A stretch of DNA of 64,000 bases from the NCBI RefSeq assembly GCF_006517175.1, contig NZ_CP041186.1:1391001-1455000 (forward strand), given 5' to 3'. The position numbers were made by a program, and so were the translations under genes. This stretch comes from Persicimonas caeni. Its GTDB lineage: Bacteria; Myxococcota_A; Bradymonadia; Bradymonadales; Bradymonadaceae. Positions 44,200 through 61,200 of this stretch are shown in pieces. The notes beneath the pieces were generated by a model. The model ran no database searches, was not told the DNA's origin, and saw only the letters and a program-made list of their open reading frames with translations. How positions within the stretch are numbered: the stretch's first letter is position 1; each line of letters opens with the position of its first letter.

Positions 44200-44601
44200 T
44201 CAAGCCCCAAACGCCTTCACCCTCGGCCACAAATGCACCGCAAAACACACCGCCGCCCCCGCCTGCAACGCAAACGCGACTGTCGCCGCCACGCCGTACA
44301 GCGCAAACCCCGCCCCCATCAACGTCCCGACGTTGACCAACACGATCGCCGCGATCGCCAGGGCGTCGTTGCCGCGGCTCGTGCCGCCGCGGAACTTTGG
44401 CAAGATCCAGTAGCCCACGCCGATGACGAGTTGGACCGTCCAGCCGAAAAGCATCGTGTGGAAGTGGGCGGTGAGCCAGCGGTCGAAGTGCGGCAGGAAG
44501 GGGTAGCCTTTGTGGGCGAGCATGAGGGCGCCGGCGGTCAGGCCGAGGCCGAGGTGGATGAGGGCGAGGCGGATGGCCCAGTAGGAGATGGAGGGCATCA
44601 T
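44200..44601 (-). CDS. Small four-TM protein resembling part of haem-copper subunit I
   Basis: 133 aa, about four membrane helices. The second helix region reads RWLTAHFHTMLFGWTVQLVIGVGYWILPKF, which resembles helix X and its neighbour in haem-copper subunit I (AHYH or GHFH motif followed by Gly-rich and ending with ...P). The two His could bind haem. It overlaps the upstream sister gene by 4 bp. It may be an accessory subunit of the adjacent NO/oxygen reductase system or a haem-binding chaperone. The resemblance is by eye only. Confidence 0.7.
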   Translation of the reverse strand: MMPSISYWAIRLALIHLGLGLTAGALMLAHKGYPFLPHFDRWLTAHFHTMLFGWTVQLVIGVGYWILPKFRGGTSRGNDALAIAAIVLVNVGTLMGAGFALYGVAATVAFALQAGAAVCFAVHLWPRVKAFGA

Positions 44602-45074
44602 GTGGCCTCCTTCTTGCTGTCCTCGTTACTTCTGCTCTTCTTCTTGCGTCGCTTGCGCTTTTTGACTTTGACGCGCCCCCAGATATTGACCGTGAAGGCC
44701 ATCCCGCCGATCCATTGCAAGGCGGCGGAGACGACGAGGAGTGCGCTCATCGTCGGCTGCCAGCCCGTGTCGAGCCACATCTGGCCGGGCTCGGCGACCA
44801 GGCGCAAGAGCAGGCCGAGGTTGAGGGTGACGAGCGCGGTCCACGACAGCCATTCGCGGCCGCGGGGCTGCTCTTTGGTCCACTTGGGGAAGAGCCACAG
44901 AGCCACGCCGATGATGATCTGGGTGAGCCAGCCGACGACGAAGAGGTGCAGGTAGGTGGGGAGCAGGACCGCGCCCCAGGCGCTCCCCGCCCACGCCATC
45001 GCCACGCCGCTGGCGAGCGCGGCGACGAAGTAGATCAGCCCGAACTTCAAGAAGAGTCTGCTGACCGTGGGCAT
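44598..45074 (-). CDS. Small four-TM protein, paralog of 44200-44601
   Basis: 158 aa from the ATG at 45074 with site GGAAG. It has four membrane helices, and TYLHLFVVGWLTQIIIGVALWLFPKW aligns with the same helix of the downstream gene but with one His instead of two. A basic C-terminal tail (KVKKRKRRKKKSR) stays in the cytoplasm. The ATGA overlap shows coupled translation with its neighbour. Likely forms a pair in the membrane; function unknown, tied by position to the respiratory cluster. Confidence 0.7.
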   Translation of the reverse strand: MPTVSRLFLKFGLIYFVAALASGVAMAWAGSAWGAVLLPTYLHLFVVGWLTQIIIGVALWLFPKWTKEQPRGREWLSWTALVTLNLGLLLRLVAEPGQMWLDTGWQPTMSALLVVSAALQWIGGMAFTVNIWGRVKVKKRKRRKKKSRSNEDSKKEAT

Positions 45075-45414
45075 ATTGGCTTCCGATTCGAGTCCTGTGG
45101 GATTCGGCGATGGTCTTGCGTGCTTTGGCGGTGGCCTTGCAGATAAGTAACGCCCGCTACATGGGGCGCGCTGGACTACGCGCGATAAGGACATGAGGGC
45201 TGCGAGTCGCAACGTGCTCATTATTTGAGGCGGTACAAAGCAGGCTTCGCCAACCCGCACGCCGCACAAGGGCAACCCCTATGTCCTTAACGCCCGCAGT
45301 TCAGGGCGCCCCATGTAGCTGGCGCCACTCCCCTGCAAGGCCATTACAACAGCGCGCGCCACGGTCCCGCAAGGCCATCACGAAGAGAGAATGCCCTCGC
45401 TCCGTACCACGCAT
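45075..45414. other. Gene-free gap with a large imperfect inverted repeat
   Basis: TAACGCCCGCTACATGGGGC near 45148 and GGGCGCCCCATGTAGC near 45302 are inverted, as are AAGGACAT near 45187 and ATGTCCTT near 45280. No gene supported. Confidence 0.6.
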
Positions 45415-47496
45415 TCATTCGACGATGAATCCCTCGGTGTTCTCGTACAGCACCACCCGGCTGCGGCCGGCGTCGAAGTCGAGGGTGTCGCTCCATTCGT
45501 GGGTCCACTGCTCGGGTTGGGCGGAGTTGCCGAGGCGGACGGTGACGTGGTGCTCGCCGGGGGTGACCGCGAGGCGCTCGGTGCCGATGCCGGGGCCGTC
45601 CGACGACAGGCCGTGGGCTTCGTAGACGTGCTCGCCGACCTGCTCGCCGTCGAGCCAGATGCCGACGCGTACGTCGGGGCGGCTGCGCTCGCAGATCTTG
45701 CCGTCGGCCGCCTGCATGTGGCGCATGGTCGTCGACTTCTCCTCGGCGGAGATGTCGCGGCAGTTTTCGACCGCGTCGGGGCGGTGCTTGACCGAGACGA
45801 CGAGCTGGGGCTCGGTGTTCGTGGGCACCAGGGAGGGCGCGTCGCTCGCGGCGACCACGATGGCGGAGAGTAGAGCCGCGACGAGCACGCCGCCGACGTA
45901 TTTTTTGGCGGGCGAGTAGCCCTTCTCCTTCTCGTCGATGACGCCGTCGCGAAGCCTCTTGGCCGTGTCGATGAACGCGGCCTTCTGGGTGCGGTTGTAG
46001 GTGACGAATCGCACGCCGGAGGTGTCGATCTCTTTGCTGTGAAGCTTTTCGCGACGGAAATAGGGCTGGCGCTCGCCGGCGAGGCGCTTTTTGGTCCACT
46101 TGATCCCCTCGCGGTAGTACGGGTCGCTCGAGCCGCAGCCGGCGACGAGCACGGCCTCGGCGCCGCGGCGGATGGCGCGCTCGATGGTCAGCGCGTGCAC
46201 CCAGCCGGCGCAGGGCACCGGGATGACGCGCCAGCCGGGCAGCTCGGGGCAGCGGCCCTGGGCGTCGACGGCGAAGTCGGCGGCGGCCGAGTTCGAGCAT
46301 AAAAAGGCGATGAACGGGCGCTCCTCGCGCTCGAGCGTCTCGTCGATCCAGGCGTCGACGGTCTTGCGTTTGTCTTGGACGGGCATCTGCGGCAGGCCGA
46401 TGCCGCCGGGGTTGCACGCCCCGGCGCAGATGCCGCAGCCGACGCATTTGGCCGGGTCGAGCTCGGCCTGGATTTCGTAGCGCGGGTGGCCGTCTTTGCG
46501 CGGCACCATCACGATGGCGTCGTAGGGGCAGTCCTCGACACAACGCGCGCAGCCGTTGCAGCGGTTGGTGTCGATGACCGCCTTTTGCGGGGTCTGGCGG
46601 GTCATCCACCAGGGGATGGCGACCGCCGGGAGCGTGAGCCCGAAGCCGAGCGCGATGATCGCGCCGCCCGACAGCCGCTCGGTGAGGCTCATCGGCAGCA
46701 GGTACCACCAGTCGGCGCTGAACGCCTCGGGCTGCACGGCCATCTGGGCCTGCTCGGCGCTCGTGGCGGGGATGAGGACGGAGACGAGCAGGAGCACGCC
46801 CACCAGCCACAGCGTCATCGGCCGCGAGGTGAGGAATTTGGCCCGGCTCATCCGGCTGATGTGCATCCACAGGGCCACGCCCATCGCCAGCGGCAAGAGC
46901 ATGTGGAAGAAGAAGACCATGAAGAAGAGGCCCGTGCTCACACCCGCGTCGGTCAGAAACGAGCGCGACAGGGGCTCGGTGAAGATCGGGAAGACCTCGA
47001 GCACCTTGGCGGTGCCCACGGCCAGCGTCTGGGCGCGCACGTCCCACACCAGCCAGTAGCCGAGCCAGCCGACGAACCACAGCAGGCCCACCAGCACGAC
47101 GCCGGTGACCCACGGCAGCCACCGCGCCCCGTTGAACCGGCGCGCGGCGAACATGCGCAGCGCGTGGACGATGACGAAGAACATCGTCGCGTCCGAGCTG
47201 TACCGGTGCAGGCTGCGCATGAACTCGCCCAAGAAGCCCATCTGCTCGAGCGACGCCCACGCCTTGTGGACGCTGGGCACGTACCAGAACAAGAGCAGCA
47301 CCCCCGAGACCAACGCCACGATAAAGCTCATGTTGGCGAGCGCCCCGGTCTGCCCCAACGGGTTGAGCCGCGCGGGGACGAGGCGCTCGACGGCGCGGTC
47401 GGCGTACAGGAAGAGGCGCTCGAAGCCTCGAAGCGCGCCCTCACCGCGCACGGGCGGTTCGGGTTGGGCGTCTTGGATTTTGAGGGGTGTTTCCAT
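45415..47496 (-). CDS. Fusion: cytochrome b, 2x[4Fe-4S] ferredoxin, FlpD/MvhD-type domain
   Basis: 693 aa from the ATG at 47496. Residues ~50-240 resemble the N-terminal part of cytochrome b/b6 with paired His (LHRYSSD...VIVHALRM; FFFHMLLPL...LWMHISRM) that would hold two b haems. After two more helices come two cluster motifs, CNGCARCVEDCP and CVGCGICAGACN. A FlpD/MvhD-like domain follows (AFLCSNSAAADFA; VIPVPCAGW; VLVAGCGSSD), where the last usual Cys is replaced (DPYY). A final helix and a beta-rich periplasmic tail end the protein. It probably passes electrons between quinol and a soluble carrier or the haem-copper enzyme. No family with this order is known to me. Confidence 0.85.
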   Translation of the reverse strand: METPLKIQDAQPEPPVRGEGALRGFERLFLYADRAVERLVPARLNPLGQTGALANMSFIVALVSGVLLLFWYVPSVHKAWASLEQMGFLGEFMRSLHRYSSDATMFFVIVHALRMFAARRFNGARWLPWVTGVVLVGLLWFVGWLGYWLVWDVRAQTLAVGTAKVLEVFPIFTEPLSRSFLTDAGVSTGLFFMVFFFHMLLPLAMGVALWMHISRMSRAKFLTSRPMTLWLVGVLLLVSVLIPATSAEQAQMAVQPEAFSADWWYLLPMSLTERLSGGAIIALGFGLTLPAVAIPWWMTRQTPQKAVIDTNRCNGCARCVEDCPYDAIVMVPRKDGHPRYEIQAELDPAKCVGCGICAGACNPGGIGLPQMPVQDKRKTVDAWIDETLEREERPFIAFLCSNSAAADFAVDAQGRCPELPGWRVIPVPCAGWVHALTIERAIRRGAEAVLVAGCGSSDPYYREGIKWTKKRLAGERQPYFRREKLHSKEIDTSGVRFVTYNRTQKAAFIDTAKRLRDGVIDEKEKGYSPAKKYVGGVLVAALLSAIVVAASDAPSLVPTNTEPQLVVSVKHRPDAVENCRDISAEEKSTTMRHMQAADGKICERSRPDVRVGIWLDGEQVGEHVYEAHGLSSDGPGIGTERLAVTPGEHHVTVRLGNSAQPEQWTHEWSDTLDFDAGRSRVVLYENTEGFIVE

Positions 47497-47510
47497 GGTC
47501 GTGACTTCCC

Positions 47511-47830
47511 TGGCCTTCGCCTCGCGCAAACGTCGCGGATCGTCCGCCCTTCAATGCTAATTTCTTCAATAGCGGGCGCCTCGATTCCTGAAGGCCTTCT
47601 ATTGACGTGAAACTACTATTTACGGGCGGACGATTCGCCGCGTTTGCGCGTATCGGCGTTTGTTGCTTGCTGGGCCTTCGCCTCGCGCAAACGTCGCGGA
47701 TCGTCCGCCCTTCAATGCTAATTTCTTCAATAGCGGGCGCCTCGATTGCTGAAGGCCTGCTATTGACGTGAAACTACTATTTATGGGCGGACGATTCGCC
47801 GCGTTTGCGCGTATCGGCGGTTGCTGCTTG
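47511..47830. repeat. 161-bp tandem duplication of an inverted-repeat element
   Basis: Copy 1 starts at 47511 and copy 2 at 47672 (161-bp period), nearly identical. Each has a 26-bp inverted pair: GCGCAAACG..GCGGATCGTCCGCCC against GGGCGGACGATTCGCCGCG... Inner arms CAATAG/CTATTG add a second stem. Copy 2 overlaps the 3' coding end of the SCO gene. Confidence 0.9.
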
Positions 47831-48757
47831 GAGTTCCGTTTTTTCGTTCACGAGCGTCCTCACCGCCGTGCTCAGCCACGTGTCGTGGCGGTCGCCGAGG
47901 GTGAGCCGGTAGGCGATCTTGCCGTCGCGGTCGATGACGGCGAACAGGTTCGAGTGCTCGATGACGCCGGTGTCGGGGTTGGTGCGCCGCGAGACGCTCA
48001 TCTCGTCGAGCACGCGGTTGACCTCGTCGGGCTCGCCGGTGACCAGGCGCCACTCGGGGGCTTCGACCTGGTGGGCGACGGCGGCCTCGGCGAGGCGCTC
48101 GGGGGTGTCGTTTTCGGGGTCGAGGGTCACGGCGACGACGGTGACGTCCTCGCGCTGCGCCTCGGTCAGCGAGTTGAGCGCGCGCCGGGCCTGCACCATG
48201 ATCGTCGGGCAGGCGGTGTGGCAGCTCGCGTAGATCGCGGTCAAGAGCACGACCTCGCCTTTGAAGTCGTCGAGGCTCACCCGCTCGCCGGTCTGGTCGG
48301 TCAGCTCGAAGGTCGGCGGGGTGAGCTCGGTGCGCAGGCGCTCGGCGGGGAACGGAAGCTGGGTCGCCTCGACCTTCGAGGGCCCCAGCATCACGAAGCT
48401 CGCGCCCATCGAGCCGGCGACGACCAGCGCGACGCCCACGGTGCTGATCATCGCCCACTTGCGCCGCTGCAACGCCCGCCCGATGGGCTGCGCCCACACA
48501 ATCGCCACGAACGCGGCGAGGATGAGCGGGTTGAGCAGCATCACGGCCACGTAGCCCCACTCGAAGCTGCCGGTGGCCGGGTCGTAGCCGAAGCACCACG
48601 TCTTGAAGTCGGTGGCGAAGGCGCCCAGGCCGGTCTCGGAGGTGGGGATGAGCAGGATGGCCGTCAGGATGAGCGTCATGAAGACGCACAGGGCGATGAC
48701 GAAGGTGGCGAAGCGCCAGCCTGTGATGAATTGGGAGAGATTGGTGAAGATGGTCAT
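47777..48757 (-). CDS. SCO1/SenC-family copper chaperone with three-TM N-terminus
   Basis: 326 aa from the ATG at 48757, ribosome site AGGAG. About three membrane helices (residues ~15-140) precede a periplasmic SCO domain with ASCHTACPTIM (CxxxC copper site) and the partner His in IEHSNLFAV. SCO proteins deliver copper to the CuA site of subunit II, here probably the CuA protein at 50893-51423. Its last 15 codons are formed by the right arm of the 161-bp repeat. The long membrane region is unusual, as SCO proteins normally have one helix. Confidence 0.88.
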   Translation of the reverse strand: MTIFTNLSQFITGWRFATFVIALCVFMTLILTAILLIPTSETGLGAFATDFKTWCFGYDPATGSFEWGYVAVMLLNPLILAAFVAIVWAQPIGRALQRRKWAMISTVGVALVVAGSMGASFVMLGPSKVEATQLPFPAERLRTELTPPTFELTDQTGERVSLDDFKGEVVLLTAIYASCHTACPTIMVQARRALNSLTEAQREDVTVVAVTLDPENDTPERLAEAAVAHQVEAPEWRLVTGEPDEVNRVLDEMSVSRRTNPDTGVIEHSNLFAVIDRDGKIAYRLTLGDRHDTWLSTAVRTLVNEKTELQAATADTRKRGESSAHK

Positions 48758-49153: not shown

Positions 49154-50857
49154 TCACCGCACGTGCCAGAGGTCGGCCAATGCCTTCCAGTTGGCGAAGT
49201 AGTAGACGACGAAGCAGGCCAAGAGCACCAACACCAGCACCATCGTGCCCGGCGCCTTGCCGTGCTCGAGGAGTTCGCGGGCCTCGGTGTCGCCCTCGGC
49301 GGGGGCGATGTCCTTGGGGGTGCCCCAGTCGTCCATGGCGCGGCCGTGGTTCTTCTGGCCGAAGAGCACGGCGTGGACGGTGAGCAGCACGTAGATGAGC
49401 AGGCCGATGAAGGCCAAGGTGCCGCCGATGCCCAGCACGCCGAGCATCAGGTGGGAGGTGGCGCCGTAGATGCCGGCGGCGTCGATGTCCCAGGTGCGGC
49501 GGGCGACGCCAGCCGAGCCGGCGAAGCTCATGCCCAAAGACATCAGGACGATGCCCACGGCGAACACGTAGGGCTGCAGGCGGGCGAGCCACTTGAAGCT
49601 GTACTCGCGGCGGAACAGGAGCGGTACCACATAGTAAGTGAGCCCCATGAAGGCCAGCGAGGTGCCGCCGACGACCGTGGCGTGGAAGTGGCCGGGGATG
49701 CGCAGGGTGTTGTGGGCGGTGATGTTGATCTGCTGGGTGCCCAGGGTCACGCCGGTGATGCCGCCGATGAAGCCGAAGATGACGAGCGACAGGAAAAAGC
49801 CCGAGAAGCCCGGGTTTTTCCAGGGGGCGTTCCAAAGCCAGCCAAACAGGCCTTTGGTGTAGCCTTTGAGGCGCATGCCCGCCTCCAGGCCTGCCGGCAC
49901 GGTGAACCCGTGGATGAGCGAGGCCAAGACCGCCAGATACATGGCGTAGGAGGTGTTCCAGATCTTCCAGGTCGCGCCCACGCCCGGGTCGACCAAGAGG
50001 TGGTGAGCCGAGGCGAGGTTGATGAAGAGGATGTAGAGGACGAAGGCGCCGCGCGAGACGAACTCGTTGAGGACGACGCCGCCGCTGGTCAGGTGGCTCA
50101 TCAGGTACCACACCGAGACCATGGCCACGACGTTGACCTGCTGGGATTGGTGGCCCAGGCCCCACCAGATGAGGCGGTACCACATGGGGTCGGGCTCGGC
50201 GGTCCAGCCCATGGCGAAGGTGAGCGTGGGGACGAGCGCGACTGCGCCGTGCAGCAGCGCGACGACCGCGATGATCGCGGCGGTCACCGCGCCGAAGGCG
50301 ACCAGCGGCATCGTCTCGCCGTACGTCTTGTTCTTCCAGGCCACGTAGACCGTGGCGAAGAAGTTGAAGATATTTACCAGCGCCCCCACCGCGAAGAGGA
50401 TGATGCCCAGGTAAAAGAGCGGGTGGGCGACCAGGGGCAAGTAGGACGTGAGCATCACGTCGGCCTGGCCCATCAGGATGATGTAGTCGGTCATGACCGC
50501 CCCGGATATCATCAATCCGAAGCCGGCCCAGGCTAATTTGGGCGAGAAGAGCTTGGTCTTCAGGAGGGTGGTCCCTGCGAAATACAGGATGGCCATCTCC
50601 ATGAAGAGAATCCAGAAGATGAGCATGTTGACGCCGTGGAAGGTCAACATGCGGTAGAACCAGGTGGAGTCGAGCAGGTGAACTGCCGGCCACCTCGTCA
50701 GCGCCAGGGTCAAGGCGGCGATGCCTCCCAACAGGAGGAAGACGACCGCCGAGACGGCGTTCATTTTGACGAAGAATTCAGCGTCCAGGCAGACCGGCAA
50801 GCCGGTGGTGTCGCACTTACGGGTGCGTGGCCCGGACATCGCTGTGATGGAAGCCAT
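49154..50857 (-). CDS. Haem-copper oxidase subunit I homologue, probable NO reductase type
   Basis: 567 aa, about 13-14 membrane helices, ribosome site AGGAG. Haem ligands are visible: MLTFHGVNMLIFW (helix II His), and IPGHFHATVVGG (helix X). The CuB/FeB region has WWGLGHQSQQVN (helix VI His) and SAHHLLVDPG (helix VII His-His), aligning with B-type (ba3) oxygen reductases. The Tyr normally four residues after the helix VI His, which forms the His-Tyr cross-link, is Gln. Loss of this Tyr is a feature of NO reductases derived from oxygen reductases. With nirK, nnrS and a Crp-type regulator nearby, NO reduction is more likely than oxygen reduction. Functional call is inference. Confidence 0.85.
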   Translation of the reverse strand: MASITAMSGPRTRKCDTTGLPVCLDAEFFVKMNAVSAVVFLLLGGIAALTLALTRWPAVHLLDSTWFYRMLTFHGVNMLIFWILFMEMAILYFAGTTLLKTKLFSPKLAWAGFGLMISGAVMTDYIILMGQADVMLTSYLPLVAHPLFYLGIILFAVGALVNIFNFFATVYVAWKNKTYGETMPLVAFGAVTAAIIAVVALLHGAVALVPTLTFAMGWTAEPDPMWYRLIWWGLGHQSQQVNVVAMVSVWYLMSHLTSGGVVLNEFVSRGAFVLYILFINLASAHHLLVDPGVGATWKIWNTSYAMYLAVLASLIHGFTVPAGLEAGMRLKGYTKGLFGWLWNAPWKNPGFSGFFLSLVIFGFIGGITGVTLGTQQINITAHNTLRIPGHFHATVVGGTSLAFMGLTYYVVPLLFRREYSFKWLARLQPYVFAVGIVLMSLGMSFAGSAGVARRTWDIDAAGIYGATSHLMLGVLGIGGTLAFIGLLIYVLLTVHAVLFGQKNHGRAMDDWGTPKDIAPAEGDTEARELLEHGKAPGTMVLVLVLLACFVVYYFANWKALADLWHVR

Positions 50858-50892: not shown

Positions 50893-51423
50893 CTATTCAA
50901 CGATGATTTTGCCGATCATGGCGTGGTGGCCGATGCCGCAAAATTCATTGCAAACAATGGTGAATTCGCCGGTAGTCGTGGGCGTGAGCGTGAGCACGTG
51001 GTCGTAGCCGGGCAGCACCTGAAAGTTCATGTTCATCGGCTGCAGCGAGAAGCCGTGCTGCAGGTCGGCCGACGAGATGTGCAGCCTGTAGGTCTCGCCC
51101 TGGCGAAGCTTGAGGGTGGGCGTCCAGCTCCACATGCGTCCGAGCAGATAGGCGTCGCCGCCGGGGGGCGGCTCGACGATGGGGATGCCGCTGGCGGGGT
51201 CCTCGCCGACCTTGTTGGCGGCGGTGAACTGCTCGACGCGCTCGACGAAGGCGTCGGGTTCGACCGCGTAGGACTCGCCGGTGCTGTTCTGTTTTCCGTT
51301 GAAGTGCCAGTAGGGCATCATGGCGAACATGATCAGACACCAGACGAGCGCCAGACCGATCCAGAGGCGTTCGTGGCCGTGGGGCCACTTGAACCAGTCC
51401 TTTGGGGGGCTGTGAATAGTCAT
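50893..51423 (-). CDS. Haem-copper oxidase subunit II with CuA site
   Basis: 176 aa, ribosome site GGAGG. One N-terminal membrane helix (RLWIGLALVWCLIMFAMMPYW) is followed by a cupredoxin domain. All CuA ligands are present: His in LQHGFS, then CNEFCGIGHHAM with Cys, Glu, Cys, His and Met. It takes electrons from cytochrome c or a cupredoxin and passes them to subunit I. The gene lies 35 bp upstream of subunit I and is close to a SCO gene that could fill the CuA site. Confidence 0.93.
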   Translation of the reverse strand: MTIHSPPKDWFKWPHGHERLWIGLALVWCLIMFAMMPYWHFNGKQNSTGESYAVEPDAFVERVEQFTAANKVGEDPASGIPIVEPPPGGDAYLLGRMWSWTPTLKLRQGETYRLHISSADLQHGFSLQPMNMNFQVLPGYDHVLTLTPTTTGEFTIVCNEFCGIGHHAMIGKIIVE

Positions 51424-51459: not shown

Positions 51460-51645
51460 TTAAGGAAGTTGAGCCGGCTGGATGAACAGCAGCTCGATCC
51501 AACCCCAGGCGGTGTACGACAGGGCCGGAATGAGGAGTCCCAGGACGAGAAGAATCCACGGGTTATCCATGATCTTCTGGAGCCAGTGCTTGTCTGGCGC
51601 GTGTTCGTCGTGGGACGGAGTCGGTTGTGGGTCGTTCGAAGTCAT
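51460..51645 (-). CDS. Small single-TM subunit of the haem-copper complex
   Basis: 61 aa with ribosome site GAGGAGG. One membrane helix (NPWILLVLGLLIPALSYTAWGW) with a polar N-terminus. This resembles the one-helix subunit IIa found with ba3-type enzymes. Position between subunit II and the second subunit-I-like protein supports membership in the complex. Confidence 0.8.
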   Translation of the reverse strand: MTSNDPQPTPSHDEHAPDKHWLQKIMDNPWILLVLGLLIPALSYTAWGWIELLFIQPAQLP

Positions 51646-51657
51646 TGGAATCCTCCT

Positions 51658-53085
51658 CTAGTCAGCGAGCGTGGTGTTGGGTTTGAGACGGGTGAAGGCG
51701 GCGGAGACCTTGGGGGCGACGGCCGCCGAGATGAGCGCCAAAAAGAGCAGGCCGCCGGCGATGGCGATGAGCCCGCCGATGCCCATGGTCGCCAAGCCGA
51801 GCCAGTCGGCCAGCCCGCGAATCTGCTGCTCGGAGCCGTAGGCCTTGCGGGCCATGCCGTGGGCGCCGGCGACCGCAAAGCCGACGGCGAAGACGACCTG
51901 GCCGATGCCGAAGAGCGCCGGCTGGAAGCGCGCGGCCTTCTTCCAGCGCGCGCTCGGAAGCGGGAAGCCCAGGGGCTCGAGCAGCATCAGCGCCACGGTC
52001 ATGAAGGCGACGGTCACCGCGCCGATGGCGGCGTGGTAGTGCGCCGGGATCATGGTGTTCGACCCGCGGATCATCGCGCCGAGCACAAACCCGCACAGGG
52101 TGAGCGCGGCGCTGGTGGCGAAGCCCACAAAGCGCGGGTCGCGCCAGATCCCCTTGGAGAGCTCGCCGCTGCGCACGGCGGTGTAGAGGCGGTGAATCAA
52201 GATGCCCAAGAAGACGAGGACGACCGGGAAGATGCCGAACTGCATCAGCCGGGTCGACCCGACGTGGTACAGCGCGCTCTGGGTACCCTCGAGGGTCAAC
52301 AGCGGCGCGAATAGGTGCGGGGCGATGAGCAGGCCGAAGAGGACCGCGGCGGTCTTGCGTTGGACCGGCGAGCGACCCAGAAGCGAGCCGACGAGCACGA
52401 TCCAGACGACGACCATGGCCACCTCGCAGGCGACCTGCAGCACGTGGCCGCCGCCCCAGAACATCAACTCGTAGTAGGCGCCCGCCTCGAGCGAGGTGGG
52501 CGTGGCCAGCCAGCCGGCGAAGAAGGTCGCGGCCGCCGCCACGATGACGACGCCCGCGGCGCGAAGCCCGGGAACGACCGCCTCGGGCAACTCGACGACC
52601 GGGGCGTGGGCGTCTTCGCGCGACCAGAGGCCGCCCGACAGGATCGCGGCGAGCACACCCACGGCGAAGAGGACCAGCCCGAGCAAAAAGAGCGGGTGGT
52701 CGACCACGGGCACGTAGTTGGCCAAGATCGGCTCGGCGTGCTCGATGCCGGCCGACAAGACCATCAGCACCACGCCCACCGCCGACACCCCGACCGAGTG
52801 GCCGGCAACCCGGCGCGCCCTGCCCGGCATCGGCAACAGGTGGAACAAGCCGACGATAAACGAGTAGAACCAGACGATGAGCGCCAGGTCGACGTGGACG
52901 ACCAAGCAGCGCTTGAAGAATTGCGGGTCGGTCACCCACGACGAAAACGGGGGCATCCGACCGATGATCAGTCCCAACGAGAAGAGCCCGGCGGTGATCA
53001 GCGCGCCGACCGACAGCATCAGCCAGCGACGGACGACTTTGAGGCCCTGGGTGCTCGAGTGGGTTTTGGTGACGAGTGACTTCAT
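51658..53085 (-). CDS. Second subunit-I-like multihelix protein of the haem-copper cluster
   Basis: 475 aa, about 12 membrane helices. It retains haem-type His in CLVVHVDLALIVWF (helix II) and IPAHYHAAIGAV (helix X) and a helix-VI-like FWGGGHVLQVACEV, but the helix VII pair is reduced to one His (APHLFAP). It is thus a divergent relative of subunit I that may bind haem but cannot have a full CuB/FeB site. It leads the operon, upstream of the small subunit, subunit II and subunit I. Possible roles are electron entry from quinol or an accessory haem subunit. Two FNR-type boxes precede it. Confidence 0.8.
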   Translation of the reverse strand: MKSLVTKTHSSTQGLKVVRRWLMLSVGALITAGLFSLGLIIGRMPPFSSWVTDPQFFKRCLVVHVDLALIVWFYSFIVGLFHLLPMPGRARRVAGHSVGVSAVGVVLMVLSAGIEHAEPILANYVPVVDHPLFLLGLVLFAVGVLAAILSGGLWSREDAHAPVVELPEAVVPGLRAAGVVIVAAAATFFAGWLATPTSLEAGAYYELMFWGGGHVLQVACEVAMVVVWIVLVGSLLGRSPVQRKTAAVLFGLLIAPHLFAPLLTLEGTQSALYHVGSTRLMQFGIFPVVLVFLGILIHRLYTAVRSGELSKGIWRDPRFVGFATSAALTLCGFVLGAMIRGSNTMIPAHYHAAIGAVTVAFMTVALMLLEPLGFPLPSARWKKAARFQPALFGIGQVVFAVGFAVAGAHGMARKAYGSEQQIRGLADWLGLATMGIGGLIAIAGGLLFLALISAAVAPKVSAAFTRLKPNTTLAD

Positions 53086-54034: not shown

Positions 54035-54245
54035 GGGCAAGATGCCCACGCACCGAACTCGACGAGGGCAAGATGCCCACACACCGAACTCGACGAGGGC
54101 AAGATGCCCACGCACCGAACTCGACGAGGGCAAGATGCCCACACACCGAACTCGACGAGGGCAAGATGCCCACGCACCGAACTCGACGAGGGCAAGATGC
54201 CCACGCACCGAACTCGACGAGGGCAAGATGCCCACGCACCGAACC
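54035..54245. repeat. 31-bp tandem repeat array, 7 copies
   Basis: GGGCAAGATGCCC starts at 54035, 54066, 54097, 54128, 54159, 54190 and 54221, exactly 31 bp apart. Units are identical except for one G/A change (CACGCACC or CACACACC). There are no spacers and no cas genes, so it is not a CRISPR. The first unit is preceded by TCGGTGC, which pairs with GCACCGA. Confidence 0.97.
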
Positions 54246-54272: not shown

Positions 54273-55139
54273 CTAAATCACCACTTCTACCAGGGCGCCG
54301 AGCGCCAGCAGCGGGAGCGTGGCCAGGCTCGAGAAGAAGAGTTTGCGGCCCCAGGCGGCGACGTCGCCGTCTGGGACGCGGCGGAAGCCGGCGACGGTGG
54401 GGCCGACGGTGCCGACGACGGCGAGCGCGAAGAAGACCCACTTCGAGTCGAGGACGAAGGGGAGCGCGGCGACGCTGGCGAGGGTGAGGATGGCGCTCAG
54501 GCGCGCCCAGAAGATCGTGATCGGATAGGCTGAGCTCTCGGGGGCGATCTTGAGGCCGGCGCGCAGGTAATCGGGCGCGCGGTATAGGGCGATGCCCAGA
54601 AAGTGCGGGATCTGCCACCAGAAGAGGATCGAGAAGAGGACGAGCGCGCCCGGGTCGACCGCGCCGGTCACCGCGGTCCAGCCCATGACGGGTGGCAACG
54701 CGCCGGAGACCGCGCCGATGGGCACGGCCCAGAAGGTGCGACGCTTGAGCGGGGTGTAGACGAAGGCGTAGATGCCCGTGGCCAGCGCGCCCAAGGCCGC
54801 GCAGAGCATGTTGACGTAGACGCCGAGCAAGAGGAGCCCGCCGAGCACGGCCAGGCAGCCGAGGATGATGCCCTCGAGGGGCTCGAGGCGTCCGGCGGCC
54901 AGCGGGCGGGTGCTCGTGCGGTCCATGAACGCGTCGGTGTCGCGCTCGAGCACCTGGTTGAAGGCGCCGCTGCCGGCGACCAACAGGCCGGTGCCGACCA
55001 GCGCGGCCACTGCGGTCTCGAGGCCGGCGGCGCCGGGCGCGAGCCACAGGCCGGCGGCGGCCGTCATGACGTTGCTGACGACGATGCCCGGCTTGGTCAG
55101 GCTGAGCCAGTCGCGGGGTCGGGTTTGTTTTTGTTGCAA
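54273..55139 (-). CDS. ctaB: Protohaem IX farnesyltransferase (haem O synthase)
   Basis: 288 aa from a TTG at 55139, 7 nt after AAGGAG; longer starts run into repeat DNA. UbiA-family membrane prenyltransferase with Asp-rich motif NQVLERDTDAFMDRTSTRPL, second motif YTPLKRRT, and about eight helices. Converts haem B to haem O by adding a farnesyl group, needed for haem-copper enzymes with O- or A-type haem. It is grouped with the oxidase-like cluster and copper genes. No CtaA-type haem A synthase is seen here. Confidence 0.95.
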   Translation of the reverse strand: MQQKQTRPRDWLSLTKPGIVVSNVMTAAAGLWLAPGAAGLETAVAALVGTGLLVAGSGAFNQVLERDTDAFMDRTSTRPLAAGRLEPLEGIILGCLAVLGGLLLLGVYVNMLCAALGALATGIYAFVYTPLKRRTFWAVPIGAVSGALPPVMGWTAVTGAVDPGALVLFSILFWWQIPHFLGIALYRAPDYLRAGLKIAPESSAYPITIFWARLSAILTLASVAALPFVLDSKWVFFALAVVGTVGPTVAGFRRVPDGDVAAWGRKLFFSSLATLPLLALGALVEVVI

Positions 55140-55160
55140 TTCTTTACTCCTTGGTTTTCG

Positions 55161-55316
55161 GGGCCCCCCATCCGCCCTTCGCTTCGCTTCGGGCACCTTC
55201 CCCCCGGGGTAAGGGATGCTGTTGCGAGAAGCCACGTGGTTCAAGAGAGCTAAGGCAGCCCTTCCCCGGGGGGAAGGTGCCGAGCGCGTGGTTTAGCGCG
55301 AGGCGGATGGGGGGCC
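55161..55316. repeat. Large inverted repeat element between ctaB and copD-like gene
   Basis: Arms 55161-55218 and 55258-55316 are approximate reverse complements (GGCCCCCCATCCGCC...CCTTCCCCC). The centre has GAAGCCACGTGGTTCAAGAG, and its relative occurs inverted at 48850-48880. Confidence 0.85.
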
Positions 55317-55330
55317 TCAACAACCCGAAC

Positions 55331-55825
55331 CTACACCCACGGCCTAGCCACAAACACCGCCAAGCAGACGATGACGATCACGAGAATCCCCGTCACCCTA
55401 CCCAGCCAGCCCGCGACCTTGCGCAAACGTTCGGCCTCTGCAGAGCCGTAACCCACCTCCGTCGCCTTCGGCCCCAGATACCAATCGTGCACGCCGCTCA
55501 CGACAAGCATGGCGATGACGGCCAGGAGCTTGTAGCCCAAGAGCCGCGTGTGATTGGCCTCGAAGAACGACAGGTTCAGGACATTTTCGACCGTCGCGCC
55601 CCACGAGTAGGCCATATACGAGCCGGTGACGACGAGCACGGTCAGGCAGAGCCAGCCCACGGGGCGAAATGCGTGGCCCAAGCGCGAGGTGACCGCGCGG
55701 CGAAGGCGCGGCTCGAGCTTGCGGGCGGCGGGTACGGCGACCATCCCCATGAAGAGGACGCCGCCGACCCAGATCACCGCCGAGAGCACGTGGAGGACGA
55801 GGCTGATCTTGTAGAGTGGGGTCAA
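55331..55825 (-). CDS. CopD-like four-TM membrane protein
   Basis: 164 aa from a TTG at 55825 that overlaps the nnrS stop (TTGA), site GGGAGG. Four helices: ISLVLHVLSAVIWVGGVLFMG (His in the first helix, typical of CopD and related haem- or copper-linked families), VGWLCLTVLVVTGSYMAY, LLGYKLLAVIAMLVV and VTGILVIVIVCLAVFV. It may bind haem or move copper. Coupled to nnrS, so likely part of NO or metal handling. Family call is tentative. Confidence 0.7.
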   Translation of the reverse strand: MTPLYKISLVLHVLSAVIWVGGVLFMGMVAVPAARKLEPRLRRAVTSRLGHAFRPVGWLCLTVLVVTGSYMAYSWGATVENVLNLSFFEANHTRLLGYKLLAVIAMLVVSGVHDWYLGPKATEVGYGSAEAERLRKVAGWLGRVTGILVIVIVCLAVFVARPWV

Positions 55826-56988
55826 CCGGGCCTCCCGTCAGCGCGCGGCTTGACCAGAATCGGGACGTACTGGAGCAGGTAGACGGCGAAGGCGAGTGCG
55901 AAGAGAACGCCCGAGGCGATCACCCAGTCGACGTAGTGCGACGGCCAGATAATCGGGACCAGCGTGCGGCCCAGTGCGGCCAGACTCATGGCGACGAAGG
56001 CCCAGGCGACGGGTTTGGTGACTTTGAGTTCGCGGCCGGTGTGGCCGAGCGCGACGCGGGCCATCATGCCCAGGGTGAGCAGGCCGATGGCGCCTACGGT
56101 CAGGGCGTGGGTGCCCATCGAGCCGGAGACCTGCGGGGTGAAGACGGCCAGCCCGCGCAGCACGAAGCCGGCGGCGATCCAGGCGTGCCCCAGATGCAGC
56201 ACCCACAGGATCGGCTTGTCGATAGTTTGCTTGGCGCCCCAGTGCGTCTGGCGGGCGAGGATGGCGACGCCGGCGATGATGGCCGCGGCGCCTGTAAACC
56301 ACTCCATGGGGGCGAAGACGCTCAGAGCGATGGCGGCGCCCACGGCGACGACCAGGAACTTCTCGAGCTTTTTGTTCGAGCGGATGAGCGCGTCGCCGAC
56401 GGCGTTGCGCGTGAACATCGGGATGATGCGCCCGCCGATGATCAGCGTGATAACGGCGATCAGATCGACGGCGAGCAAGAGCGCCGGGCGTGCCCAGCCC
56501 TCGACGACGCCGAGCGCGTCGAGGTGCATGGCGGCGTTGGCGCCCCACAGGAGCGCCAGGATGCCCAGGAACTTGAGGTTTCTGCGGTTGTTCGTGCGGA
56601 TGAGCGGGCGGCCGATGGCCCCGGCGAGCGCCGGGATGAAGAGGAGGTCGGCCATCACGACGAGCCCCGGCTGCAAGTCGCCGGCGAAGACGACGGCCAA
56701 ACGGCCGGCCAGCCACAGCAGACACAGCACGACGAGCCGTCCACCGACGGCGGTCTCCTGCTTGGTCCAGTTGCCCACGGCCGTGAGCAAGAAGCCTGCG
56801 ACCACGGCCACGGTGAACCCGAAGACCATCTCGTGGCCGTGCCAGGTCGACGGCGTCCAGTACGCAGAGGCGTCGACGTGGCCGGTGTAGGCGAGCAGCC
56901 AGAGCGGAAGAAAGGCCACGGCAAAGGCCGCCGCCAGCAAGAAGAAGGGCCGAAAGCCCTTGGCGAAAACAGTCGGGGTCGATGTCAT
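55822..56988 (-). CDS. nnrS: NnrS family protein
   Basis: 388 aa, about 12 membrane helices. Begins KGFRPFFLLAAAFAVAFLPLW and contains WHGHEMVFGF, NRRNLKF, GGRIIPMFTRNA and THALTVGAIGLLTLGMMARVALGHTGR, all hallmarks of NnrS. NnrS is a haem- and copper-containing membrane protein that protects cells from NO during denitrification. Upstream is the hemerythrin gene in the same direction; downstream the CopD-like gene overlaps. The operon is led by an FNR-type box at 57602-57613. Confidence 0.95.
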   Translation of the reverse strand: MTSTPTVFAKGFRPFFLLAAAFAVAFLPLWLLAYTGHVDASAYWTPSTWHGHEMVFGFTVAVVAGFLLTAVGNWTKQETAVGGRLVVLCLLWLAGRLAVVFAGDLQPGLVVMADLLFIPALAGAIGRPLIRTNNRRNLKFLGILALLWGANAAMHLDALGVVEGWARPALLLAVDLIAVITLIIGGRIIPMFTRNAVGDALIRSNKKLEKFLVVAVGAAIALSVFAPMEWFTGAAAIIAGVAILARQTHWGAKQTIDKPILWVLHLGHAWIAAGFVLRGLAVFTPQVSGSMGTHALTVGAIGLLTLGMMARVALGHTGRELKVTKPVAWAFVAMSLAALGRTLVPIIWPSHYVDWVIASGVLFALAFAVYLLQYVPILVKPRADGRPG

Positions 56989-57018: not shown

Positions 57019-57501
57019 CTACAAGTCAAGATCCTCGACTCGTGGCTCGACTTGCGACAGGAACTGTCGCTCGTGGGCGCTGTGAGCGGCCAGCGTCTGG
57101 CGCATGGTGCTCACCAGTGTGATGAGTTTGTCACAGCAAACTCCATGCCGAGCGCCATTCTTTTGCTCGCAACCTTGCGACAAAATATCCCAGAACTCTT
57201 GGAGCTGCGCTTCGATCTGACGATGCTCGTCGTGGATGTCGTCGAGCTCTTCGAGCTCTTCTTGGCTGGCGACCCGTGCGGCGGCCGGAAAAATTCGCGT
57301 CTCCTCTTCGCCGATATGTTCGTCGAGCTCGTCGTTGAACTCGCGGGTGTAGGAGATCAACTCCTCGATGATCAGTGCGGGGTCCTCGCTGCCGCGAATC
57401 CCGTCGAGGTGTGCTTCGATATCGTCGAGAAGCCAGATGAGGCGAGTGTGCCCGTGAGCCATCTTCGGCAGCTTGGTGGTGGTGGTGATTTGCGCGGTCA
57501 T
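57019..57501 (-). CDS. Hemerythrin-like (HHE) iron protein
   Basis: 160 aa, no signal peptide. It has a four-helix HHE pattern: HGHTRLIWLLDDIEAHL, DELDEHIGEEETRIFP, DIHDEHRQIEAQL and AHSAHERQFL, giving His and Glu ligands for a di-iron site. A CC pair (GVCCDKL) is present. Such proteins bind O2 or NO or repair Fe-S clusters (YtfE/RIC-like). First gene of the nnrS operon, so it likely responds to NO. Di-iron binding is inferred from motifs. Confidence 0.85.
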   Translation of the reverse strand: MTAQITTTTKLPKMAHGHTRLIWLLDDIEAHLDGIRGSEDPALIIEELISYTREFNDELDEHIGEEETRIFPAAARVASQEELEELDDIHDEHRQIEAQLQEFWDILSQGCEQKNGARHGVCCDKLITLVSTMRQTLAAHSAHERQFLSQVEPRVEDLDL

Positions 57502-57613: not shown

Positions 57614-57720
57614 TCCTTGGCACACGCTTTGCTCTGTTTTGTTGGCGAGCGACGCATCAATGGGCCACGAAGCGGCCATCGAAAGCTCCTCAAACACCTC
57701 TAGACGAACGAGACGCCCCT

Positions 57721-58422
57721 ATGGAAAAGGTCGATAAGCTGCGCGAAATCCCGATGTTCGAGGCGGTTCCGCCGACCACGCTCGAGCCGCTGGCCCAATA
57801 CTTTGTGGCACGCACCTTCGAGCGCGGAGATCTGCTGTGGAAAGAGGGGACGCCGGCGCACAACTTCACCTTTATCACCCACGGTAAGATCAAGGTGTTG
57901 AAGTATCGCAATGACGGCAAGGAGACCACGCTGGGCATCTTCAACGACGGAGATCCGGTCGGCCAGATCGCGGTCTACCAGCGCATCGACTACCCGGCGA
58001 GCGCCATCGCGCTCGACGACACCGAGGTGCTCCAGATCCACCGCGACCACTTCTTTGGCACCCTCAAGCGCGACGCGGACCTGCTCGAGGCGACGATCAA
58101 CTCGATGATGCGCCGAAACCACCACCTGGTGCGGCGCATCCACGAGCTGGCGACCGACTGCGCCGAGCAGCGCCTGGCGATGCTTTTCGAGAAGTTCAGC
58201 GAGAAGATGGGCCGTCGCACCAAGCTCGACGACGGCAGCATGGGCATCTTCGTCGACCTGCCCTTGTCACGTCGCGATATCGCCGAGCTCATCAACACGC
58301 GTGTGGAGACGGCGATTCGTATCATGAGTCGGTGGAACAAGGAGGGCCCGGTCAAGACCGAAAAGACCGGCTTTTTGATCGTCGATGCCGCCAAACTCCA
58401 AGAGATTGCCACCGAGTTCTAA
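57721..58422 (+). CDS. Crp/Fnr family regulator (DNR-like, no Fe-S cysteines)
   Basis: 233 aa from the ATG at 57721. The N-terminal cyclic-nucleotide-like beta-roll (HNFTFITHGKIKVLKY; GDPVGQIAVYQ) is followed by a long dimer helix and a C-terminal helix-turn-helix (LPLSRRDIAELINTRVETAIRIMSRW). It lacks the N-terminal Cys cluster of FNR and looks like DNR/NNR-type regulators that sense NO through haem. The recognition helix carries the E-x-x-x-R pattern, fitting TGA-containing boxes. It most likely controls nirK, the haem-copper operon, nnrS and the structured RNA. Confidence 0.9.
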   Translation: MEKVDKLREIPMFEAVPPTTLEPLAQYFVARTFERGDLLWKEGTPAHNFTFITHGKIKVLKYRNDGKETTLGIFNDGDPVGQIAVYQRIDYPASAIALDDTEVLQIHRDHFFGTLKRDADLLEATINSMMRRNHHLVRRIHELATDCAEQRLAMLFEKFSEKMGRRTKLDDGSMGIFVDLPLSRRDIAELINTRVETAIRIMSRWNKEGPVKTEKTGFLIVDAAKLQEIATEF

Positions 58423-58573: not shown

Positions 58574-58672
58574 TATCGGCCAATCTTTGGCACGTGCCTC
58601 GCAGATTTAATCCACCGTCACGCCGCCTCGTGGTGAGGTGGATGGATGCCAATTGACCGAACGGAGGACTCA

Positions 58673-60148
58673 ATGTTCGTCCCAATGAAGAATGTTCTGA
58701 CTAACCGTTGGCGCGTGCTCGCGCTCGTCACCCTGTTCCTGTCGATCTTGACGTTGGGCGCCTGCAAGGCCGACTCAGCCAAGTCGACCACGGCCGACGA
58801 ACCCGCCCAGACCGGCGAGACGGTCGAGTTCACCCTCGAGGCCTACCTGAGCGGCTACAAGGGTGTGGGTGGCGACATCGACGGGCAGACCAACCCGGAG
58901 TTGAAGGTCAATGCCGGAGACACCGTCAAGGTCACGCTCATCAACAAAGAGAATATGGCCCACGACATCGCGCTGGAGAACGCCGGCACGAAGAGCGAAG
59001 CGCTCATGAAGGTCAACGAGCGCACGACGTTTACCTTCGAGGCGAAGGCCAACGACACCTACTTCTGCTCGCTGCCCGGCCACCGTCAGGCCGGCATGGT
59101 CGGCAAAGTCGTCGTCGGCGGCGGCGACCAGCCGGTGGCGGCCCACGAGGGTCACAGCAACAGCTTGATGCCCGCCACGGCCACCTCGCTCAAGAAGGCC
59201 AAGAAGGTGAATACCGACGAGATTGGCTGGGACGCCGCGGATATCCCGCCGCCCATCAAGCGCAAAGAGAACAAGACCGTCGAGTACGTCATCGAGACCG
59301 AAGAGGTCGTCGCCGAGCTCGAGGACGGCACCACCTACGAGATGTGGACCTACAACGGCAAGGTCCCCGGCCCCTTCCTGCGCGTCAAAGAGGGTGACAC
59401 GGTCATCGTCCACGTCGACAACGCCCCCGACAGCACCATGTCGCACAGCATCGACTTCCACTCGGTGACCGGCCCCGGCGGCGGTGCGGCCGTGCTGCAG
59501 GTGCCCCCGGGCGAGCGACGCTCGCTGCAGTTCAAGGCGACCCACGCCGGCCTGTACGTGTACCACTGCGCCACCCCGCATATCCCCACGCACCTGGCCC
59601 GCGGCATGTTCGGCATGATTCTAGTCGAGCCCAAGGAAGGCCTGGCCCCGGTCGACAAGGAGTTCTACGTCATGCAGGGCGAGTACTACACCAAGGCACG
59701 CCCGGGCACCGCAGGACACCAGGAGGAGAGCTCCGACCGCCTCTTCGAAGAGATGCCCACGTACGTGGTCTTCAACGGCCGCGTGGGCTCGCTGACCGGT
59801 GAGCGCGTCATGAAAGCCGAGGTGGGCGAGAACGTGCGCATCTTCTTCGGCGTCGGCGGCCCGAACACCCACAGCGCCTTCCACGTCATCGGCGAGATCT
59901 TCGACAAGGTCTACTCCGAAGCGGCCATCATCAGCGAGCCGCTGCGCAACGTGCAGACCACCGCGGTGCCCCCGGGCGGCGCGACCATGGTCGAGTTCGA
60001 GGTCGACTACCCGGGTAAGTACCTGCTCGTCGACCACGCGCTGACTCGCCTGGACAAGGGTGCCGTGGGCATCCTGGAGGTCACCGGCGAGGCCGACGAC
60101 ACGCTGTATAAGAGTCTGAGTGGCGAAGAGGCCACGGACAAGCACTGA
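58673..60148 (+). CDS. nirK: Copper nitrite reductase with extra N-terminal cupredoxin domain, lipoprotein
   Basis: 491 aa from the ATG at 58673 after ribosome site GGAGG. Signal peptide with lipobox TLGAC. Residues ~30-150 form an extra cupredoxin (VTLINKENMAHDI; YFCSLPGHRQAGMVGKV) with its own type 1 copper ligands His, Cys, His, Met. The two NirK domains follow: MSHSIDFHS and YHCATPHIPTHLARGMFG supply type 1 and type 2 ligands, and THSAFHVIGEIFDKV the third type 2 His. It reduces nitrite to NO in the periplasm. The added domain may take electrons from a donor. A SCO gene follows 44 bp later. Confidence 0.95.
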   Translation: MFVPMKNVLTNRWRVLALVTLFLSILTLGACKADSAKSTTADEPAQTGETVEFTLEAYLSGYKGVGGDIDGQTNPELKVNAGDTVKVTLINKENMAHDIALENAGTKSEALMKVNERTTFTFEAKANDTYFCSLPGHRQAGMVGKVVVGGGDQPVAAHEGHSNSLMPATATSLKKAKKVNTDEIGWDAADIPPPIKRKENKTVEYVIETEEVVAELEDGTTYEMWTYNGKVPGPFLRVKEGDTVIVHVDNAPDSTMSHSIDFHSVTGPGGGAAVLQVPPGERRSLQFKATHAGLYVYHCATPHIPTHLARGMFGMILVEPKEGLAPVDKEFYVMQGEYYTKARPGTAGHQEESSDRLFEEMPTYVVFNGRVGSLTGERVMKAEVGENVRIFFGVGGPNTHSAFHVIGEIFDKVYSEAAIISEPLRNVQTTAVPPGGATMVEFEVDYPGKYLLVDHALTRLDKGAVGILEVTGEADDTLYKSLSGEEATDKH

Positions 60149-60180: not shown

Positions 60181-60192
60181 ATGGAGAAGACC

Positions 60193-61200
60193 ATGACCAC
60201 GACAACGCACAACAAAACCCCCGGCATGGTCGTCCTTGTGGCGACCATCGCCGGTTTGGTGCTCGCCGCCATCTCGCTGCTCCCGCTGGGGCCCGGCCAC
60301 TCGGCGCTGGGCGTCGCCTTCGACACCGAAGCCGACGAGGCTGCCGAAGCCGACAAGCAAGAGGCGCCCAAGGCGCTGCGCGGCATCCACTACGACCCGC
60401 CGCGCCAAGCGCCTGCGCTCGACGGGCTCGACCACAACGGTCAGTCCTTCTCGCTCAAACGCCAGCCGCACCCGTTGGCAATGGTCTTCTTCGGCTACGT
60501 CAGTTGCACCGACGTCTGCCCGACGAACCTCAAGAAGTTCGAGAAGATCCAGAAGCAATTGGGCGCCGACGCCGACCAGGTCCAGTTCGTCTTCGTGACG
60601 ATCGACCCGGGCAACGAGCCGCCCAAGAAGATGGCCGAGTACCTCGAGTACTACGAAGGCGAGATCATCGGGGTGACCGGCCCGTACGGCGACAGCCTCG
60701 ACGAGGTCTACAAGTCGTGGGGCATTGTGCGAAAGCGCGTCGAGCTGGACAAGCCGGTGATGGGTCGTGACTACAAGTTCGACCACAGCGGCCAGATCTA
60801 TCTGGTCCAGAACGGCAAGAAGATGCCGGTCTCCTACCCCTACGGCACTTCGGTAGACACGATGGTCGAGGACCTGAGCGCGCTGCTCGACGATCCGTCG
60901 CTGGGCGAGCGGCTGCCCGAGGTGGGCTCGGTCAAAAAGGTGACCATCCCGCCGGGCTCGTACACCCGCGCGGCGCAGAAAAACCCCAAGCTTCCTGCTT
61001 ACCTTCGCGTACGCGTGGGAGACAGCATCCGCTGGCGCAACGACGACTACATGTACCACTTCGTCGGCGACATCTCGCTGGGCCCCGGCGAGGAGGCGAC
61101 CCAACGCTTCGACGAGGCCGGTGAGTTCTACTTCGGGTGCACCGCGCTGCCCAGTGAGGTGATCCGCATCGCCGTCGAAGAGCCCTCCACCGACGGCTGA
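60193..61200 (+). CDS. SCO1/SenC protein fused to a C-terminal cupredoxin-like domain
   Basis: 335 aa from the ATG at 60193, ribosome site GGAGAAG; an ATG at 60181 is also in frame. One membrane helix, then a SCO domain with YVSCTDVCPTNLKKF (CxxxC) and partner His in YKFDHSGQIYLV. From residue ~235 a cupredoxin-like strand set follows (YLRVRVGDSIRWRNDDYMYHFVGDI; FYFGCTALPSEV), with His and Cys but no downstream His or Met, so a complete blue-copper site is doubtful. It probably delivers copper to NirK. The fusion is uncommon. Confidence 0.88.
   Translation: MTTTTHNKTPGMVVLVATIAGLVLAAISLLPLGPGHSALGVAFDTEADEAAEADKQEAPKALRGIHYDPPRQAPALDGLDHNGQSFSLKRQPHPLAMVFFGYVSCTDVCPTNLKKFEKIQKQLGADADQVQFVFVTIDPGNEPPKKMAEYLEYYEGEIIGVTGPYGDSLDEVYKSWGIVRKRVELDKPVMGRDYKFDHSGQIYLVQNGKKMPVSYPYGTSVDTMVEDLSALLDDPSLGERLPEVGSVKKVTIPPGSYTRAAQKNPKLPAYLRVRVGDSIRWRNDDYMYHFVGDISLGPGEEATQRFDEAGEFYFGCTALPSEVIRIAVEEPSTDG

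Follow-up and report, generated by a model that had tools for sequence, protein, structure and literature searches.

The genes at 49154-50857 and 50893-51423 of the window, the 64,000-nucleotide stretch of the Persicimonas caeni genome analysed here, very probably encode an eNOR, one its catalytic and the other its CuA subunit; eNOR is an NO reductase derived from the B family of haem-copper oxidases. An earlier note on this DNA had read the catalytic subunit as a possible NO reductase, and on sequence grounds that reading is well supported, by a Gln in place of the active-site Tyr, a B-type fold, the CuA subunit, a neighbourhood containing the copper nitrite reductase NirK, and a phylogenetic tree. 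It is not new, because the eNOR family, a known and named group, is defined in print by a Gln in place of this Tyr. The less familiar aspect is the placement of the eNOR in a conserved gene set together with an oxidase-like haem protein devoid of the copper site, here designated HCO2, and it is this paralogue that could be the new part of the finding.

The catalytic subunit is a protein of 567 amino acids, read on the minus strand from 50857 down to 49154, with a match of 207 bits to the Pfam profile PF00115 (COX1). The metal ligands are kept, as had been claimed for this protein, and comprise His74 of helix II, His236 of helix VI, the His285-His286 pair of helix VII, and His390 and His392 of helix X. 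The helix VI motif GHQSQQ (His236, Gln239, Gln240) lies in alignment on GHPIVY of the Thermus and Aquifex ba3 oxidases, so that Gln240 is the counterpart of their cross-linked Tyr, and the exchange of Tyr for Gln described in the earlier note is borne out. His236, Gln239 and Gln240 are invariant in all 49 aligned relatives, and the His residues of helices VII and X are conserved in the full-length rows of the same alignment, with a single His392-to-Lys replacement as the sole exception. Because this pattern of Gln and His is conserved across the 49 relatives, a chance substitution or sequencing error can be dismissed, and the exchange is, by the measure of this alignment, real and under strong constraint. 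Relatives at 69% identity occur in metagenome-assembled genomes of Opitutia (phylum Verrucomicrobiota). On plasmid pTF24b of Thermus thermophilus TF24 (L053:8001-9686), a Gln-bearing subunit I has GHFK rather than GHFH on helix X, and Lys may there stand in for His as the ligand of the low-spin haem. In L113 (G057:C3) and further group f14 genomes, an in-frame TGA is followed by a separate small open reading frame that encodes the C-terminal transmembrane helix of the eNOR subunit I.

The neighbouring genes on the minus strand form a conserved set around the catalytic subunit. The CuA subunit II (50893-51423, 176 amino acids, PF00116) carries the ligands His123, Cys158, Cys162, His166 and Met169, which are invariant in 17 sequences, including the homologues from Thermus, Thermomicrobium and Defluviimonas. 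The CuA gene is in every case immediately preceded by that of a 61-amino acid protein with a single transmembrane segment and an invariant core (51460-51645), a possible small subunit. On the other side of the catalytic subunit lies an SCO-type protein (47777-48757; PF02630), for which conservation and hydropathy indicate four N-terminal transmembrane segments and for which the ATG at 48757 is the likely start codon; its Cys182 and Cys186, in a CxxxC motif, and His271 are invariant. Beyond it, a fusion protein of 704 amino acids (45415-47529) joins a cytochrome b with four invariant haem His residues to eight Cys residues for two [4Fe-4S] clusters and a terminal FlpD-like domain, an architecture also present in the Defluviimonas eNOR operon. 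All 14 named relatives keep the order of 61-amino acid protein, CuA subunit, subunit I, SCO protein and cytochrome b fusion, within the reach of their contigs. Further along the minus strand are two homologous short tandem proteins, both COX1-like and with four transmembrane segments (44598-45275, and 44200-44601 with 133 amino acids), each of which resembles part of a haem-copper subunit I. This pair also adjoins the eNOR in L020, and the first of the two has a match in 17 of the family's 21 genomes, some without eNOR. The claim that the window holds no other NO reductase stands insofar as there is no second complete NO reductase active site; it had left unlisted three more proteins of COX1 fold, namely this pair and HCO2 (51658-53085).

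Profile matches confirm the further neighbours that had been named alongside the CuA subunit. NnrS (55822-56988; PF05940, 380 bits) and a hemerythrin-domain protein (57019-57501; PF01814) lie on the minus strand, and a Crp/Fnr-family regulator (57703-58422; PF00027, PF13545), previously described as DNR-like, and a NirK with an N-terminal cupredoxin domain (58646-60148; TIGR02376, 354 bits against a cut-off of 296; PF00127) on the plus strand. A haem o synthase, CtaB/CyoE, is encoded on the minus strand at 54273-55244 (TIGR01473, 236 bits against a cut-off of 210). Between its gene and a small open reading frame, at 54035-54244, is a tandem repeat of 31 bp in 6.8 copies with 97% match. Directly downstream of NirK, at 60181-61200, another SCO-type protein is encoded, which bears a long C-terminal extension. 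In Ardenticatena, eNOR and NirK are encoded in one operon (PMC4653789), and on a Thermus plasmid eNOR adjoins nirS.

From this gene content a simple pathway can be proposed. NirK would make NO, and together NirK and eNOR would provide the simplest route from nitrite through NO to N2O. Electrons would pass from CuA to the low-spin haem and on to the pair of high-spin haem and CuB (or Fe), at which two molecules of NO would combine and be reduced to N2O and water. The site, lined by the conserved Gln, would lack with the Tyr the redox cofactor used in O2 splitting. Electrons are probably delivered by the cytochrome b/ferredoxin/FlpD protein, with a quinol or a cytoplasmic donor perhaps feeding the cytochrome b and thereby CuA, both path and direction being conjectural. 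The SCO protein may serve copper assembly, and CtaB haem assembly. N2O would be the end product, since NosZ was not found in the genome, where only cross-matches of cupredoxin domains below the cut-off appeared. The lack of NosZ, along with the proximity of NnrS and hemerythrin, would also suit a low-yield NO reductase that serves detoxification and not respiration. This we regard as unlikely, although it retains some weight, because the CuA subunit, the dedicated cytochrome b/ferredoxin partner and NirK all point to a respiratory chain. Moreover, Verruconatronum alginivorum, an isolate of the Verrucomicrobiota whose genome encodes NirK and a homologue of eNor, grows by the reduction of nitrite to N2O (PMC13274419, 2026).

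Assignment to eNOR follows the published definition of the family, in which an enzyme of the B family has Gln for Tyr and is accompanied by a cupredoxin subunit II (PMC8756737). The family has been biochemically characterised and is described as NO reducing (PMC11388526, citing Murali et al. 2024). The protein at 49154-50857 has Gln where the cross-linked Tyr would be, retains the His ligands of the haems and CuB, groups with the B family, and has the gene of its cupredoxin (CuA) subunit II directly upstream. The family is credited also to Hemp and Gennis (2008), and the enzyme used in the 2024 study was reportedly that of Rhodothermus marinus. Membership is judged by the diagnostic residue and by the clade rather than by direct alignment to a characterised enzyme. 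Beyond the features common to the family, the operon adds the upstream paralogue HCO2, the conserved 61-amino acid protein and the cytochrome b/ferredoxin/FlpD fusion.

The tree was built from 537 columns, with those of the helix VI motif excluded. In it, among Gln-bearing proteins, HCO2, and ba3, A and C types, and without reference sequences of sNOR, gNOR, nNOR and bNOR, the 19 Gln-bearing proteins form one branch (bootstrap 72, SH-aLRT 85) that unites those of Thermus, Thermomicrobium and Defluviimonas with the protein studied here. Eleven ba3 proteins, all of which keep the Tyr, are split off from the Gln-bearing proteins and HCO2 with support of 100/98. The AlphaFold model of the catalytic subunit (pLDDT 71) finds its closest match by Foldseek in the Thermus ba3 structure 3s8f. 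The fold, the haem and CuB ligands and the CuA subunit are shared with B-family ba3 oxidases such as that of Thermus thermophilus, from which the protein differs in the exchange of Tyr for Gln, of VY for QQ, and in its separate branch.

The B-type fold is what speaks for a B-family oxygen reductase that tolerates the loss of Tyr or uses another residue in its place, as do the SCO and CtaB neighbours, which also serve oxidases. Such an enzyme is nonetheless very improbable: the Tyr is absent from every one of the 49 aligned relatives, the Tyr-bearing ba3 enzymes stand apart in the tree, the context is one of NirK, NnrS and hemerythrin, and NO reduction is reported for the family. Assignment to the ba3 oxygen reductases was rejected for want of the helix VI Tyr. 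Nor has a Tyr been relocated to helix VII, as in the C-family (cbb3) oxygen reductases, since AHHLLVDPG of the present protein has none at the position occupied in HHLHYTALP of the genome's own CcoN. The cNOR and qNOR enzymes share the haem-copper superfamily and, on the present prediction, NO reduction; they are related to the C family and have Glu at the active site, whereas the protein studied here has Gln240 and a CuA subunit. The sNOR, gNOR and bNOR (CuANOR) enzymes are likewise alternative NO reductases related to the B family, but have Asn (sNOR, bNOR/CuANOR) or Asp (gNOR) where Gln240 stands (residue table, Table A4, in PMC8756737).

Seven COX1-family matches occur in the genome, comprising two A-type proteins, one cbb3, one cbb3-like protein lacking the Tyr, the eNOR, HCO2 and one short protein. 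They include neither a cNOR nor a qNOR. The cbb3-like subunit I (G000:C1:6427189-6428772; L117:9187-10773) lacks the helix VII Tyr, with HHLIGG in place of the HHLHYT of the organism's CcoN, a motif that six relatives within the family have as well. Its gene is adjoined by those of a CcoO-like protein, a c-type cytochrome and a copper P-type ATPase. As this is a second haem-copper protein without the Tyr, eNOR may not be the sole candidate for NO reduction in the genome.

HCO2 (51658-53085, minus strand) is a diverged subunit I paralogue of 475 amino acids. Its His64, His214, His349 and His351 show no variation in any alignment row that covers them, so that the haem His residues and the helix VI His are kept, while Pro256 and, in most cases, Trp stand in place of the His pair of helix VII. 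It also has in common with eNOR the helix VI Gln at +3. Comparison of the HCO2 and eNOR profiles gave a probability of 99.8, and in the tree HCO2 joins eNOR and not ba3 (100/98), its exact place being unsure on a branch of length 3.3. Structure models were made of single proteins, HCO2 and the eNOR subunit I each alone; that of HCO2 (pLDDT 80) matches the ba3 and cbb3 folds, and this likeness to PDB entries is one of fold only, with no match among PDB sequences. Because the haem His residues are invariant and the helix VII pair is replaced, HCO2 should hold two haems and no normal CuB.

The distribution of HCO2 was followed in three phyla. Among 379 Myxococcota genomes, eNOR is present in 48 and HCO2 in 40, and in 38 of these 40 HCO2 lies directly upstream of the eNOR genes, on the same contig and strand and about 0.8-1.1 kb away. 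Neither of the other two was accepted as a case of HCO2 without eNOR: in G080 the contig ends 790 bases from the start of HCO2, and in G347 the sequence passes into a run of N where the eNOR gene begins. In Verrucomicrobiota, HCO2 was found in five of 289 genomes, each time beside eNOR. Of the 246 Planctomycetota genomes, 18 have HCO2, 13 of them also with an eNOR-like match, mostly on another contig, and five without. A c-type cytochrome follows HCO2 in L141, L144 and L150. HCO2 was not found within 8 kb of eNOR on the plasmids of Thermus, Thermomicrobium and Defluviimonas.

The most likely role of HCO2 is that of an accessory partner that binds haem and is itself unable to hold a normal haem-copper centre. 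That HCO2 is instead the true NO-reducing subunit and the protein at 49154-50857 its accessory is barely credible, since despite its synteny with eNOR and its retained haem His residues HCO2 lacks both helix VII His, which makes a three-His CuB or FeB site impossible, and since the eNOR of Thermus, Thermomicrobium and Defluviimonas have no HCO2 so near them. As a tentative proposal, with chances somewhat below even, HCO2 may represent an undescribed haem-copper superfamily branch in which CuB has been lost and both haem sites retained. It would be an obligate partner of eNOR in Myxococcota and Verrucomicrobiota, whether as the catalytically silent member of a heterodimer, as a relay for electrons or as a subunit that handles NO, and would occur in a freer, cytochrome c-linked form in Planctomycetota.

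Should HCO2 bind two haems in the absence of CuB, it would offer a natural test of which parts of this scaffold serve catalysis and which serve assembly or electron transfer. HCO2 is, in addition, a marker for this type of eNOR operon. For the eNOR itself, NCBIfam and Pfam label the protein only as cytochrome oxidase subunit I, so that the NO reductase would be overlooked in such genomes. Similar genomes would then be scored as positive for NirK and negative for NO reductase, and yet would probably release N2O.
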